Source: a bacterium
GTDB taxonomy: Bacteria; UBP15; UBA6099; DSWB01
DNA length: 14,398 nucleotides
Assembly: GCA_020061125.1 (NCBI GenBank)
Contig: JAGUYV010000159.1
Coordinates: 1 to 14,398, forward strand
Reading direction: 5' to 3'
Under the pieces are notes generated by a model. The model was not told where the DNA came from and did no database searches. It was given only the letters and a program-made list of their open reading frames with translations. Both the position numbers and the translations under genes were made by a program. Below, one piece after another: positions 1,550 to 7,179 of this stretch. The stretch's first letter is position 1, and the number at the start of each line of letters is the position of its first letter.

Positions 1550-2413
1550 TCACTTGAGGGACGCGCGCGCGCGCAGGCGGCGCGAGACCGCGCCCGCCAG
1601 TGTTGCGGCCAGATACGCGGCCGCGGCCAGCACAATGATGGTGGCGCCCGCGGGCAGGTTGGGCGCATAACTCAACGCCAGCCCGCCCGTGGTGAACACC
1701 GCGCAAAGTATTGACGAAAGAATCATGATGCGGCTCATGGACCGCGCCATCTGCCCCGCCACGGCCACGGGCAGGGTGAGCAGCGCGATGACCAGCACGA
1801 TGCCCACCACGCTTACCAGCAGCACCACGGTCAGCGCGGTGAGGCACAGCAGCAGCATGTACAGCGCGTCCACACGCAGCCCGCGAGTACGCGCGAATTC
1901 TTCATCAAAGCAGATGGCCGTGAACTGGTTGAACAAAAGCACGCCCAGGCCCACCACGAAAATATCAAGCGCAATCACCATCCACAGGTCCGCTGGCGTG
2001 ACCATGAGGATGTTGCCGAAAAGATAGCTCATGAGATCCTGGCTGTACCCGGGCGTGCGCGCGATGAACAGCACGCCCGCGGCCATGCCCACGGCCCACA
2101 GGGCCCCGATTATGGTATCTTCGCGTTCGCGCGCGCGAAGACTTACGAACCCGATGATGAAGGCGGCGAGCAACGCCGCGAACACCGCGCCGTGCAGGGG
2201 CTGCAGCCAGGTCCAGCCATGCACCTGTATCAGATAGTTGGCGGCCCCCAGGCCACCGAGCACGCAGTGTGAGATGCCGCCCGCGATGTATCCGATGCGG
2301 CGCATGGTCACATATGTGCCCACCACGCCGCAGGCCACGCTCGCCAGCAGGCCCGTGGCCAGGGCGTACTGCATGAACTTGTAGTTGGCCACGGCGTCAA
2401 GGAATTCGCTCAC
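1550..2413 (-). CDS. znuB: Zinc/metal ABC transporter permease (ABC-3 family)
   Basis: This is the polytopic inner-membrane subunit of a ZnuABC/TroABCD-type importer for divalent metals, most likely zinc. The 287-aa product has the family's features: an N-terminal segment YKFMQYALATGLLASVACG, then GTYVTMRRIGYIAGGISHCVLGGLG, about eight hydrophobic segments, and the cytoplasmic coupling loop DEEFARTRGL at about residues 170-179. The later hydrophobic helices VVLLVSVVGIVLVIALLTLP and ILSSILCAVFTTGGLALSYA are also typical. The start is a GTG at 2413 that overlaps the znuC stop (GTGA). It is preceded by GGAGG nine bases upstream, so the longer in-frame extension over znuC is not real. It is the last gene of the regulator-znuACB operon; the overlap suggests translational coupling with the ATPase. 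Confidence 0.92.
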   Translation of the reverse strand: MSEFLDAVANYKFMQYALATGLLASVACGVVGTYVTMRRIGYIAGGISHCVLGGLGAANYLIQVHGWTWLQPLHGAVFAALLAAFIIGFVSLRAREREDTIIGALWAVGMAAGVLFIARTPGYSQDLMSYLFGNILMVTPADLWMVIALDIFVVGLGVLLFNQFTAICFDEEFARTRGLRVDALYMLLLCLTALTVVLLVSVVGIVLVIALLTLPVAVAGQMARSMSRIMILSSILCAVFTTGGLALSYAPNLPAGATIIVLAAAAYLAATLAGAVSRRLRARASLK

Positions 2414-3195
2414 CGGCAATCGCCTCCGGGGCAGGAGTCCTGGTGGCGCACCATGCGCATTCCCAGTCCGCAGAGCTGCCCGAGCGCCTCCGCGTCCACA
2501 TCCGTGGTGTCGTGCATTTGCACATTTTTCTGAATGCACAGAACGCGTTTCACATACCGGGACACGAACCACAAATCATGGGACACCAGGATGACGGTCA
2601 TACGCTCGTTCATGCGGCCCAGGAGATCATAGAGCTGCGCGGCGACTTCGGAATCCAGGCTGGCCGTAGGCTCGTCCAGAAGCAGGATGTCAGGTTCGGA
2701 CACCAGGGCGCGGGCGATGAGCACGCGCTGGCGCTGACCGCCGGACAGGTCCGAGAATGGCCTGTTGCGCAGATCGGCGAGACCCACCTCGTCGAGCGCA
2801 TCCAGGGCGGCCCTGCGGTCACGCGCGGAGAAAGGGCCGAGGCCCGCGCCGCGCCGCCCCAGCCGGCCCATGAGCGCCACATCCAGCACATGCACGGGAA
2901 AGCGCACATCCGCATAAATGTACTGGGGCACATAGCCCATTCGCGCGCGCGCTCGTTCCGGCGGGCTGCCGAACACGCGCACGGTTCCGGCAAGCGGATG
3001 AAGCAGCCCCAATATCAGCTTTAATATAGTAGTTTTACCGCTGCCGTTCGGCCCCACAATAGCCACGAATTCGCGCTCTTTGATGTCAATGCTCATGTTC
3101 CGCAATACGGGATCTCCATTGAACGCGAAGGTGACGCCGCTGATGCGGACCGCGGGTTCGCCGGGGGCAGGCGTTGTGTTTTTATGGCGCTCCAT
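2410..3195 (-). CDS. znuC: Zinc/metal ABC transporter ATP-binding protein
   Basis: This is the cytoplasmic ATPase that powers the importer. All nucleotide-binding motifs are present in order: Walker A GPNGSGKTT at residues 48-56, Q-loop Gln91, signature LSGGQ at 150-154, Walker B ILLLDEP at 170-176, and the H-loop His206 in VSHD. The length of 261 aa is normal. The start ATG at 3195 has AGGGAGA five bases upstream and lies 20 bases after the znuA stop. The C-terminus holds several cysteines and a histidine (LCGLGMRMVRHQDSCPGGDC), which could bind metal, although that is inference. It overlaps the permease by four bases. Metal specificity is inferred from the neighbouring His-rich binding protein. 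Confidence 0.93.
   Translation of the reverse strand: MERHKNTTPAPGEPAVRISGVTFAFNGDPVLRNMSIDIKEREFVAIVGPNGSGKTTILKLILGLLHPLAGTVRVFGSPPERARARMGYVPQYIYADVRFPVHVLDVALMGRLGRRGAGLGPFSARDRRAALDALDEVGLADLRNRPFSDLSGGQRQRVLIARALVSEPDILLLDEPTASLDSEVAAQLYDLLGRMNERMTVILVSHDLWFVSRYVKRVLCIQKNVQMHDTTDVDAEALGQLCGLGMRMVRHQDSCPGGDCR
2423..2427 (-). promoter_or_regulatory. Ribosome binding site deciding the znuB GTG start
   Basis: GGAGG on the minus strand, nine bases before GTG 2413 and inside the end of znuC. It supports the GTG start rather than an ATG farther upstream. Confidence 0.65.
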
Positions 3196-3215: not shown

Positions 3216-4112
3216 TCAGCGGCTGAATCCGCTCACGATTTCCCGCGCCATGATTTCCATGTTTGCGATGTAATCCTCGGCCAGACCATCCAGGGGAATG
3301 ACCACGCCCCCGATTTCCCGCGCCACCCGGTCCGCGCTTTTTTTCGAGAACTGCGGCTGCACGAAGATGACACGCACGCCGTCTGCGCGCGCCTTGCGGA
3401 TGAGCGCGTCCAGGGTGCGCGCCGCCGGTTCCTTGCCGCCGGTCTCCACGGCGATCTGCTCCAGGCCGTATGCATGCGCGAAATATCCAAACGCAGGGTG
3501 ATACACATAGAACCGCTGGCCCTTGAACGGCTCGAACATGGCCGACAATTTTTGATCCAATGCGCGGAGATCCGCGATCAACGACTCTTTGTTTTTTTCG
3601 TAGGTTTCCCTGTTTTCAGGATCCAGGACGGACAGAACCGCGGCCGTGTTTTCCGCCATGGAGACAGCGTTGCGCGGCGACATCCAGATGTGGGGGTCGA
3701 GTTCCCCGTGCTCCTCGTGATGGCCATGTTCGTGATCATGCTCCACGGCATCGGCGCGATCCACGCCACGGCCCATGTCCTCGATCCGTAACGATCGGTT
3801 CTGCGCCGCCGCCTTTTTCGCGATTTGCCCCTCGAACGGAATGCCGATGGTGAAATACACGCTGGCGCGGCTCAAATCCGCGATTTGCCGGGGCGTTGGC
3901 GTGTAAGTGTGCGGGGACTGCCCCGGGGCGATGAGAATGCGCGTTTGCGCGCGGTCTCCGGCGATGCGATCCACGAAATATTTCTGCGGCGGAATGCTGA
4001 CGAACACCAAGGGCGGCCCCTGCGGTTTTCCCCGGCCCGAGCAGGACGCCAGAAAACCGGGCGCGGTCAAAAGCGCCACGGTAATGATTATCTTTCTGAA
4101 ATGCGTTTTCAT
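3216..4112 (-). CDS. znuA: Zinc/metal ABC transporter substrate-binding lipoprotein (ZnuA-like)
   Basis: This is the high-affinity metal-binding component, anchored at the outer face of the inner membrane. The start ATG 4112 is preceded by AAGGAGGAG and gives a lipoprotein signal: KTHFRK, a hydrophobic stretch, and lipobox LASC with Cys24. Cluster A-I family ligand positions are visible: His68 (GQSPHTYTP), His141 (DPHIWMSP), His205 (YVYHPAFGYF) and Asp275 or Asp280 near the end. Between the first two lies an acidic, histidine-rich loop (EHDHEHGHHEEHGELD, residues 124-139), the feature that separates zinc-type ZnuA/AdcA from manganese-type binding proteins. The mature length (about 275 aa of 298) is typical. 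The ATG overlaps the stop of the RHH regulator (ATGA), so the regulator and znuA are translationally coupled. Confidence 0.93.
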   Translation of the reverse strand: MKTHFRKIIITVALLTAPGFLASCSGRGKPQGPPLVFVSIPPQKYFVDRIAGDRAQTRILIAPGQSPHTYTPTPRQIADLSRASVYFTIGIPFEGQIAKKAAAQNRSLRIEDMGRGVDRADAVEHDHEHGHHEEHGELDPHIWMSPRNAVSMAENTAAVLSVLDPENRETYEKNKESLIADLRALDQKLSAMFEPFKGQRFYVYHPAFGYFAHAYGLEQIAVETGGKEPAARTLDALIRKARADGVRVIFVQPQFSKKSADRVAREIGGVVIPLDGLAEDYIANMEIMAREIVSGFSR

Positions 4113-4405
4113 TGCGGCTCCTCCTTGACTCGTGCGCTGCGCGTGCGGGCGGCGTGTCCGCAAACAAGATGCACCTCGTGGCATTTCGAGCATTCTTCGA
4201 GAAGGTGGTCGCGCATGAATTCCTTCCAGTGTTCTTTCTGGTGCGGGCTAAGCTGTCCTGTGCCGTTGCACACCGGGCAGGTGTTTTCGAGCGCCGAGAG
4301 CACGGCGCCGCGGATAAATTCGCTGCGGTTGGGCAGCCTGCTGATGGCGTCCGCGAGCGCGGCGTCCGCCTTGAATGTGATCACCTGGTGCTTGTTTTTG
4401 CTCAT
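4109..4405 (-). CDS. Small ribbon-helix-helix (CopG/NikR-like) regulator with Cys/His cluster
   Basis: This 98-aa protein is the first gene of the zinc-importer operon. Residues 6-40 fit a ribbon-helix-helix fold: strand HQVITFKAD, then helices ALADAISRL and RSEFIRGAVLSALE. The NRSEFIRGAV segment is typical of RHH regulators. It is followed by a potential metal-binding module: CPVCNGTG (Cys43, Cys46), His55, His59, His67, then ECSKCHEVHLVCGH (Cys72, Cys75, His76, His79, Cys82, His84). The start ATG 4405 has GGAGAACGGCGGA upstream; the longer frame would begin inside the -35 box. Its stop overlaps the znuA start by ATGA. The inference is a zinc-responsive autoregulator of znuACB working in place of, or together with, a Fur-type Zur. 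An RHH domain with NikR-like metal control is the closest known idea, but the NikR ACT-like domain is absent. Confidence 0.85.
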   Translation of the reverse strand: MSKNKHQVITFKADAALADAISRLPNRSEFIRGAVLSALENTCPVCNGTGQLSPHQKEHWKEFMRDHLLEECSKCHEVHLVCGHAARTRSARVKEEPQ

Positions 4406-4460: not shown

Positions 4461-4489
4461 ATCGTATTACACTGTATTACTGCTGTCAA
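4461..4489 (-). promoter_or_regulatory. Promoter of the RHH regulator-znuACB operon
   Basis: On the minus strand a perfect -35 TTGACA (4484-4489) is separated by exactly 17 bases from -10 TACGAT (4461-4466, four of six consensus). Predicted transcription starts near 4454, giving a leader of about 50 bases before ATG 4405. It lies 39 bases beyond the stop of the upstream acylase gene, with no terminator between. Confidence 0.7.
4464..4480 (-). promoter_or_regulatory. Tandem GTAATAC operator candidate inside the promoter
   Basis: GTAATAC occurs twice on the minus strand (4474-4480 and 4464-4470). The copies are exactly 10 bp apart, one helical turn; one lies in the spacer and the other runs into the -10 box. 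Direct repeats on one DNA face fit cooperative binding by RHH dimers, and binding would block RNA polymerase. This is the likely autoregulatory site of the downstream regulator. Confidence 0.55.
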
Positions 4490-4528: not shown

Positions 4529-6919
4529 TTATTTTTTTTCTGCGAAGCGCGCGGCCAGATCTTTTGGATCCACGCTAAAGGCCGTGCGGGCGGGATGTTC
4601 GTGGCCGGGATCGCCGCCCCATGGGTCAATGTCGCGCTCCACATCCTTGCGCGTGAGAGGCACGGTCATCCACTGCTTTGCGGCAAACAATTCAGCCTGC
4701 TGAAAAGCGTGCGGCGAGCCTGGGAATACCTTTGCGTCAATCTGGCCATAAGGGGTGATCGCATAGGAGACAGGGTTGCGAGGGTCCATGACATGGGCGT
4801 GAATGAATGAGGAGCCGAAATCGCAAATCACGCGCCCCTTGAGTCCGTTGATTGCGCCATCGGCAAGCTCGCGGTCTCCAAAAGCTTCGTCAATTTGCTC
4901 ATGCCCGCCTGGTTGCTCAAAAGCCCCCATTGCGGCCATGAACAGGGTCTGGATGCCAACGGTGCCGCCTGGAAGAGGGAGTCGGCGCCCCGCCAGGGTC
5001 ATGAAATGCGCCTCGCCCCAGGGGATCTCGATTTTCCCGAAATTCGCCCGCAAATCCCGCGCCACGGCATCGAGTTCATCAAGATACAGGACCATCTCGC
5101 GGAGCGTGGGGGTATAATCCCTCGGAAACCATGGCAGGCCGGAGAAGCGGCGCAAAACAAACATCACGGTCATTCCGGGTTGATCCGCATCTGCGTGCGC
5201 GTTCCATTGCCGCAGGATTTTGTCCAGTTTTTTCACGTCATCGGGCAGTGGAATTTCCCCGAGATTTGACGCATGCGTTTTCCAGCCGCGCTCAATGGCC
5301 TGGATGAAAAGCTGGGAATCCCGAGACAGGGTGCTGAACGCCAGTTTCGTGCGCACATCCTCCATGCTTGTTATGGACCGCGAGCAAGTCAACTCGCGCA
5401 TGAGCAGCCCGCGCGGAGACGAACTGACGGACTCCGGTGTAATATGGTAAGGAATGGATTCCGGCCGCTGGGGATTGGCTTCGCATCCTGCGGCGAACCA
5501 GGGGGCGTCGTTGGCGCTTCGCACCACGCCGCCAAGAGGATTCAGATGGTAGGGCAGTTGGAAATCCGGATCTCCCAGCCGCCACACGCCATGCAGCCAG
5601 TCGTTAAGCAATGTCCAGCCGGGCAGAGGCTTGCCCGTGTCGGGTTTGTGCAGGGGATTGATGTCTCCGTAACGCACGGGCACCCGGCCCGCCCAAATAT
5701 ATGAGATGTTCCCATACTCGTCTCCGAGCACAAAGTTGCGCATGGAAAACTTGGGCGACCGGTTCAGGTGATAATGTGCGTATACGGAATCGAGCCAGGG
5801 CGCTCGAAGCCGTTCGGAGATGTATTTCAGCGGCGCCATGGGGTCAATCACCGTGTCCATGGTTGAGACTTTGATGGCATAACCGTAGTCCGGCCTCTCC
5901 TTGCCCGGAGGGTAATTCCAGAGCCATCCATGCCGGGTGTAATATATCGTCAAGTCAAGGTCTTTCGAGCGCCTGATTTTGATGCGCACATTTTTGCGCT
6001 CCATGGCAACCCATTCGTTGCCCGCCAGGTACATGTCATTTTTTTCGGGATGGATTTTCTCCATGAACACATCGGCGGTATCGGGCTTGTTGCGTGTGAA
6101 TGCGATGCCGGTGTGGGCGCCCCGGCCCGCGGCGAAGAAGGGGCCGACGAATCGGCCGAAAACGGTTTGTCCATTCACCTCAAGGTGCGCCAGAAACACG
6201 GGGCCGTCCCAGGGATCGTGCAAATCTCCATACACAATCGCGGCGCGTTCACGAACCAGCGACGGCCCGATGGCCATGGCGTTGGAACCGCCCCTGTTCC
6301 CAGTCAGAGAAGGAATTTTTCCCTGCGTCTGCTCTTCTTCCGGCGTCAGATTGCCAAACGCACCTTCGGCGTTCTTGTACAGATCCAGGGCCACGAGATC
6401 CTGCGGGGTAATAGGGCCGATGCCTCGGAGAATCTCGCCTCTGTCCACGCCGTCCAGAACGGGATACCTCTTGCTGAACGAATTGGTTTTTCCGGATTCT
6501 TGAATGAAATCATTAAATCCCGCGGCGTATGCGCAGAGCTGTGACTGGATTTCCTCGGGCAGTGAGAGCCACTGCGCTGCAAACTCGTGATAGCCCATAG
6601 CCCGGGAACGGATGTCGCTTTTCAGAAGCTCGGCATTTATTGGATCCGAAGCCAAGCCAGTGCCGAAAAACTCCGATAACCGGCCCTGGGCGCTTAAAAT
6701 GTCCAGGGCGAATTCATACGCATTGTCTTGCGCCTGGGTCCAGCCCAGAGCGTACATGGCCGCTTCCTTACTGTCCGCGAAGATATGCGGAATCGCGTAT
6801 TTGTCCCTGATGATCTCCGCCTTGTGCGGCGCGGCACCGCCTGTCCGTGAAATGCCGCTTAACAGCAAAAACACAATGAAAACCAGGCTTATGAGCCGCC
6901 GGGGGGCCATCTGGCGCAT
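4529..6919 (-). CDS. Exported penicillin acylase family protein (Ntn hydrolase)
   Basis: Members of this family are periplasmic amidases matured by autoproteolysis into two chains. They include penicillin G acylase, acyl-homoserine lactone acylases and PvdQ. The 796-aa product starts at ATG 6919 with GGAGG six bases upstream, and has a signal peptide (MRQMAPRR, hydrophobic core to about residue 22, likely cleavage near GGAA). The family start EIIRDKYAIPHIFADS and the segment GWTQAQDNAYEFALDILSAQGRLSEFFG mark the alpha chain. The likely cleavage point and catalytic N-terminal serine is Ser212 in GGSNAMAIG, where many relatives have SNxW. NPLGGVVRSANDAP near residue 470 carries the Asn expected in the oxyanion hole. 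The C-terminus shows PGGHEQ and the conserved SFIHAHVMDP block. The substrate cannot be told from sequence. The gene is divergent from a HAD gene and upstream of the zinc operon. Confidence 0.9.
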   Translation of the reverse strand: MRQMAPRRLISLVFIVFLLLSGISRTGGAAPHKAEIIRDKYAIPHIFADSKEAAMYALGWTQAQDNAYEFALDILSAQGRLSEFFGTGLASDPINAELLKSDIRSRAMGYHEFAAQWLSLPEEIQSQLCAYAAGFNDFIQESGKTNSFSKRYPVLDGVDRGEILRGIGPITPQDLVALDLYKNAEGAFGNLTPEEEQTQGKIPSLTGNRGGSNAMAIGPSLVRERAAIVYGDLHDPWDGPVFLAHLEVNGQTVFGRFVGPFFAAGRGAHTGIAFTRNKPDTADVFMEKIHPEKNDMYLAGNEWVAMERKNVRIKIRRSKDLDLTIYYTRHGWLWNYPPGKERPDYGYAIKVSTMDTVIDPMAPLKYISERLRAPWLDSVYAHYHLNRSPKFSMRNFVLGDEYGNISYIWAGRVPVRYGDINPLHKPDTGKPLPGWTLLNDWLHGVWRLGDPDFQLPYHLNPLGGVVRSANDAPWFAAGCEANPQRPESIPYHITPESVSSSPRGLLMRELTCSRSITSMEDVRTKLAFSTLSRDSQLFIQAIERGWKTHASNLGEIPLPDDVKKLDKILRQWNAHADADQPGMTVMFVLRRFSGLPWFPRDYTPTLREMVLYLDELDAVARDLRANFGKIEIPWGEAHFMTLAGRRLPLPGGTVGIQTLFMAAMGAFEQPGGHEQIDEAFGDRELADGAINGLKGRVICDFGSSFIHAHVMDPRNPVSYAITPYGQIDAKVFPGSPHAFQQAELFAAKQWMTVPLTRKDVERDIDPWGGDPGHEHPARTAFSVDPKDLAARFAEKK

Positions 6920-6925
6920 TCCGTG

Positions 6926-6930
6926 CCTCC
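6926..6930 (-). promoter_or_regulatory. Ribosome binding site deciding the acylase start
   Basis: GGAGG on the minus strand, six bases before ATG 6919. It selects this start over in-frame ATGs at 6949 and farther upstream, which lack such a site. Confidence 0.75.
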
Positions 6931-6974
6931 GAATCTTGGGGACTGTCATAAAGGGGCGGTAATGCCGTAAAATA

Positions 6975-7011
6975 CCGGAATCGCCGGGGATGTTCTCATT
7001 CGGGATTCCGG
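6975..7011. repeat. Inverted repeat upstream of the acylase gene
   Basis: CCGGAATC (6975-6982) and GATTCCGG (7004-7011) are perfect reverse complements separated by 21 bases. They lie 56-92 bases upstream of the acylase ATG. This could be an operator or a leader hairpin; no T-tract follows on either strand. Confidence 0.45.
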
Positions 7012-7179
7012 CCCGGCGCAGCTGCCGCGGAACACGCATGCCGTGGAACGCGCCTTGTAAATAAGGATACAACAAGTAAGGGAAAAAACAACAGGAATTT
7101 CACGGCGTAACAATCAATGGAATACACAGAAGAAGGCAGGGGCATACACCACGGAAACGCCTGCCAGATGAAAATAATT

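Follow-up and report, generated by a model that had tools for sequence, protein, structure and literature searches.

The product of the first gene of the znuACB operon in the window (the whole stretch of 14,398 nucleotides that was analysed) is very likely a repressor that responds to zinc and controls zinc uptake as well as its own gene; genome comparison suggests both the repression and the role of zinc as effector. A sequence-only reading of this DNA had proposed that the gene regulates ZnuACB zinc uptake, and comparative genomics supported the proposal through znu adjacency, conserved cysteines and an operator, from which we infer that zinc is the effector. At the level of sequence comparison, we found the protein, the operator and zinc genes to be associated and the candidate metal ligands to be conserved across genomes. 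The operator is absent from the earlier reading and was newly recognised in the present analysis.

Table 1. Position, strand and supporting detail of the features of the zinc operon and its regulator in the window
Feature	Position	Strand	Detail
RHH (ribbon-helix-helix) + Cys/His regulator gene (P0001)	4109..4405	-	98-aa ORF, 56 homologues
Ribbon-helix-helix DNA-binding domain	4283..4387	-	residues 7-41: strand VITFK, then two helices with LPNRSEFIR
Cys/His domain	4160..4279	-	residues 43-82: C43xxC46 ... H59 ... H67 ... C72xxC75 ... C82
Operator GTAATAC-AGT-GTAATAC	4464..4480	-	exact match
Promoter TTGACA-17-TACGAT	4461..4489	-	operator inside spacer
znuA, zinc-binding lipoprotein of importer	3216..4112	-	PF01297, E 1.7e-72
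znuC, importer ATPase	2410..3195	-	PF00005
znuB, importer permease (ABC-3)	1550..2413	-	PF00950, E 3.9e-67

The regulator ORF begins with an ATG at 4405, ends with a TGA at 4111-4109 and specifies a protein of 98 aa. The znuA ATG lies at 4112-4110, the stop and start codons sharing ATGA. This overlap and the place of the regulator as first gene of the operon had been noticed before and were seen again here, with znuA, znuC and znuB following according to Pfam. Translation of the ORF likewise gave the protein described in the earlier reading, with CPVCNGTG at residues 43-50 and ECSKCHEVHLVCGH at residues 71-84. A chance ORF was ruled out because the protein is conserved in its homologues. ZnuA carries the His-rich loop EHDHEHGHHEEHGE, and such a loop is usual in zinc-type ZnuA. 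The best NCBIfam match of znuC was the AztA zinc ABC ATPase, under its cut-off. The longest znuB ORF reaches 2572, but translation probably starts near 2413, so that znuB would overlap the 3' end of znuC. A penicillin-amidase family acylase (PF01804, weakly PvdQ-like) is encoded at window positions 4529-7075, immediately upstream of the operon and in the same direction.

The N-terminal part of the protein was assigned to the RHH superfamily through matches to RHH_1 (PF01402) in 21 of the 25 aligned family members (best 1.9e-4) and through the helices of an AlphaFold model, which cover residues 15-22 and 27-39; the window protein alone scored below the cut-off of the Pfam RHH model. Eight residues of this domain (F11, K12, L17, S28, F30, I31, R32 and A34) are nearly invariant among 57 proteins. 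The AlphaFold monomer, built from 21 sequences, was of moderate quality (pLDDT 76, pTM 0.37), and we therefore make no claim on the geometry of the metal site. Foldseek and VIA-align searches with this monomer gave no meaningful PDB match. Such an outcome is expected for a protein that folds as an intertwined dimer.

Upstream of the family genes we recognised the operator consensus GTAWTAC-N3-GTAWTAC, which consists of two self-symmetric heptamers 10 bp (one DNA turn) apart. Allowing one mismatch, we found the operator in the 300 bp upstream of 41 of 57 RHH genes, compared to 0.01 expected from shuffled upstream regions; 21 RHH genes have an exact copy. Each heptamer reads identically on both strands save for its central A/T, and the heptamer centres of the 21 exact sites (AA in 8, TT in 7, TA in 4 and AT in 2) vary independently, a pattern consistent with a single symmetric RHH dimer on each heptamer and a spacing of one turn between the two dimers. 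The copy before the operon is the sole site with two or fewer mismatches within the window, and GTAATACAGTGTAATAC is the DNA target that we predict for the window protein. It occupies the 17-bp spacer of a promoter that scores 10 of 12 matches (0.1 expected in shuffles) and reaches into the second hexamer, TACGAT. TTGAC stands just upstream of the operator in 30 of the 41 cases; the commonest spacing is a 3-bp gap, seen in 14. Since an operator bound in the spacer would block RNA polymerase, repression is the natural reading.

A scan of genome contigs yielded 26 homologues, from Gemmatimonadales, Phycisphaerae and other Planctomycetota, Zixibacteria, Glassbacteria, Spirochaetota and Deltaproteobacteria including Desulfomonile. 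A profile search of the phylum of Alkalispirochaeta alkalica found the protein in 32 of 392 genomes, and 30 further genomes from this search were examined, which gave 56 homologues in all. The znu genes lie directly downstream in 39 of these and are not adjacent in 17. The co-occurrence with znu genes that the earlier reading had proposed as a check thus held for the 39 adjacent cases, and most others were linked through the operator. At one locus (L016, 717-1334), a 205-aa predicted membrane protein with no Pfam match separates the RHH gene from a ZnuB-like stretch. One family member belongs to a cultured spirochaete, A. alkalica DSM 8900 (L022), and members in cultured spirochaetes make experimental tests practical.

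In 13 of the 17 genomes in which the RHH gene is not beside znu, the operator was present elsewhere in front of znuA, of znuC or of a gene for a COG0523 (CobW-type) GTPase. Examples of such operators in trans are L062, L076, L078, L183, L186, L179, L181 and L080. Of these, L179, L181 and L080 precede genes for COG0523 GTPases, which are classic members of zinc-starvation regulons. L062 comes from Desulfomonile; this genome, with an RHH-znuC-znuB operon, was grouped with the operon genomes and has an exact site before a lone znuA elsewhere. Of 55 sites other than the regulator's own in genomes with the protein, 22 stand before znu or COG0523 genes, compared to none of the 20 sites examined in genomes without it (Fisher p 3.6e-4). 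Where the protein is present, the operator pattern had more matches than its reversed-pattern control (41 versus 11 in 26 genomes, 77 versus 29 in 30 genomes), and 20 spirochaete genomes without it gave 35 versus 53. Many single-mismatch sites fall in unrelated genes, as chance predicts. Judged by its targets, which on comparative evidence are zinc importer and zinc chaperone genes, the protein falls in the class of zinc-uptake regulators. A znu-linked operator was not found in 4 of the 17 non-adjacent genomes; in two of these the protein is without its last three cysteines, and one is truncated at a contig end.

Several other sites look nonfunctional, namely those within the metK coding sequence (L206, L207), one in a prophage-like gene set (L180) and two exact sites with no evident zinc gene in a planctomycete (L072, L073; genome G013). 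The same applies to the only other exact operator in the regulator's own genome, which is 79% complete: the gene that starts 19 bp after it is PC4-like, next to a probable tRNA, and is not a zinc gene (L086, 1878-1894). This site is on a small contig (C296 of G000) that seems to carry the tRNA and an integrated element. In the spirochaete G408 (L179, 459-4515), two exact operators flank a cluster that contains a COG0523 GTPase and a DinB-like protein; a Peripla_BP_2 substrate-binding protein comes next, a hint that a zinc chelate may be taken up.

No family model in Pfam or NCBIfam matched the Cys/His segment above its cut-off, and its nearest motif likeness is to the CxxCxGxG knuckle of DnaJ and anti-TRAP. 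Among the 57 proteins, C43 and C46 are kept in all, C72, C75, C82 and H67 in 55 and H59 in 52. Retention of all five cysteines, on which the sequence-only reading had staked its idea of a zinc sensor, was accordingly observed in 55 of 57 proteins. The two exceptions, spirochaete homologues at L023 (2445-2663) and L024 (1045-1263), stop short of C72, C75 and C82; their genomes have no operator at one mismatch or fewer, and they offer a natural test of the need for the C-terminal tail. The main rival to a zinc-responsive repressor is a protein that controls uptake through the operator but holds zinc for purely structural purposes, the signal being redox state, manganese, iron, cadmium or a partner protein. 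CPxCxGxG indeed resembles the structural zinc motifs of DnaJ and anti-TRAP, and C43, C46, C72 and C75 could supply the four ligands that suffice for such a site. However, H59, H67 and C82 are also nearly invariant, which is more than one structural site needs, and the genes under its control encode importers of the zinc type and COG0523 GTPases, so that we consider this explanation unlikely. Since the near-invariant ligand set exceeds a single four-ligand site, there may be room for both a structural and a sensory zinc site.

It is very improbable that a Fur-family Zur is the protein that recognises the GTAWTAC site and that the RHH protein is a mere passenger of the operon. Fur-family genes are present in the regulator's own genome, and Geobacter-type Zur boxes likewise contain GTAAT (PMC545781). 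However, no exact site was among the matches listed in 26 genomes without the RHH protein, the sites follow the protein into genomes without znu adjacency, and independent heptamer centres are unlike a single inverted Fur box. Zur was set aside as the true regulator because the site tracks the RHH protein and not Fur-family genes. The three Fur-family proteins found in the regulator's own genome matched PerR, PerR and Fur models best, not Zur, in an assembly incomplete enough that a Zur may be missed. That the protein is an antitoxin or a plasmid-type CopG regulator lying near znuA by chance is hardly credible. Many RHH proteins are antitoxins, but this one lacks a toxin partner, its homologues from at least six lineages mostly have znu genes next in line, and its operator is found repeatedly in front of zinc genes.

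For the zinc-responsive repressor, the following mechanism can be envisaged. One RHH dimer would bind each heptamer, and two dimers would occupy the same face of the DNA next to each other, thereby blocking RNA polymerase. Zinc held by C43, C46, C72 and C75 with H59, H67 and C82 would stabilise the DNA-binding form, and zinc shortage would release the repressor and turn on uptake. In this scheme we infer zinc binding, the specificity for this metal, its direction as corepressor and the dimer stoichiometry.

Control of zinc uptake is attributed to Zur (Fur family) and to AdcR/ZitR (MarR family). In a 2022 review table of metal regulators, nickel-responsive NikR is the sole RHH entry (PMC9294342). 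For G. metallireducens, Desulfuromonas and D. psychrophila, an earlier study reported znuABC but detected no Zur and no Zur site (PMC545781). We did not find an RHH zinc-uptake regulator, or a family of this kind, in Pfam, NCBIfam, PDB or the open literature. The protein probably represents an undescribed family of RHH metal sensors with its own Cys/His zinc module and operator, occurring in at least six phylum-level lineages and acting instead of or beside Zur on znuABC and COG0523 genes. Judging from its sequence and context, the regulator would combine the NikR-like plan of an RHH repressor that responds to a metal with Zur-like targets, its metal domain and its operator both being new. As in NikR, an RHH head is fused to a metal domain and the importer of the metal thought to be sensed is controlled; the metal part of NikR, however, is a C-terminal ACT-like nickel domain, whereas here it is a short Cys/His domain. 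NikR half-sites are 13-16 bp apart, in Deltaproteobacteria as GTGTTAC-N13-GTAACAC (PMC545781), whereas here the GTAWTAC heptamers adjoin with a 3-bp gap, and the window protein matched no NikR model in Pfam, NCBIfam or PDB sequence searches. With Zur it shares znuABC and COG0523 targets, the presumed zinc-corepressor logic and, through a Fur-family gene in a sister genome, the gene position, but the winged-helix fold of Zur is unrelated and its DNA box differs, and the window protein had no match to the FUR domain PF01475. AdcR/ZitR, too, controls a zinc ABC importer and is often encoded in the same operon as that importer, but is an independent family with a MarR fold and another site. The DnaJ zinc domain and anti-TRAP (PF00684, PF15777) share the CPxCxGxG knuckle at C43-G50; scores were under the curated cut-offs, and here there is one knuckle only and no DnaJ or TRAP context. 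If the reading as a new family is true, the regulator would be a third, unrelated zinc sensor and an independent invention, and its operator would allow immediate, testable regulon prediction.

The regulator was not found in six other genomes of the same order, most of which have znuA. In the sister genome G002, a Fur-family gene (PF01475) lies directly upstream of znuA (L248), in the place held here by the RHH gene, which suggests that one regulator was replaced by the other at this position. The earlier reading had set the gene against proteobacterial zinc control; this framing is doubtful, since the comparison set comprised only seven genomes from the host phylum, too few for Pseudomonadota. 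At another locus (L038, 1411-2127), a 238-aa protein has a Fur-family domain followed by an apparent FeoA-type domain. Finally, three Desulfobacterales homologues of about 150 aa (L025, 408-866; L026, 2945-3406; L027, 4916-5368) contain additional CxxC motifs beyond the first Cys/His domain and have the operator variant GTATTATTTTGTATTAC; they possibly form a second subfamily that contains an extra zinc module.
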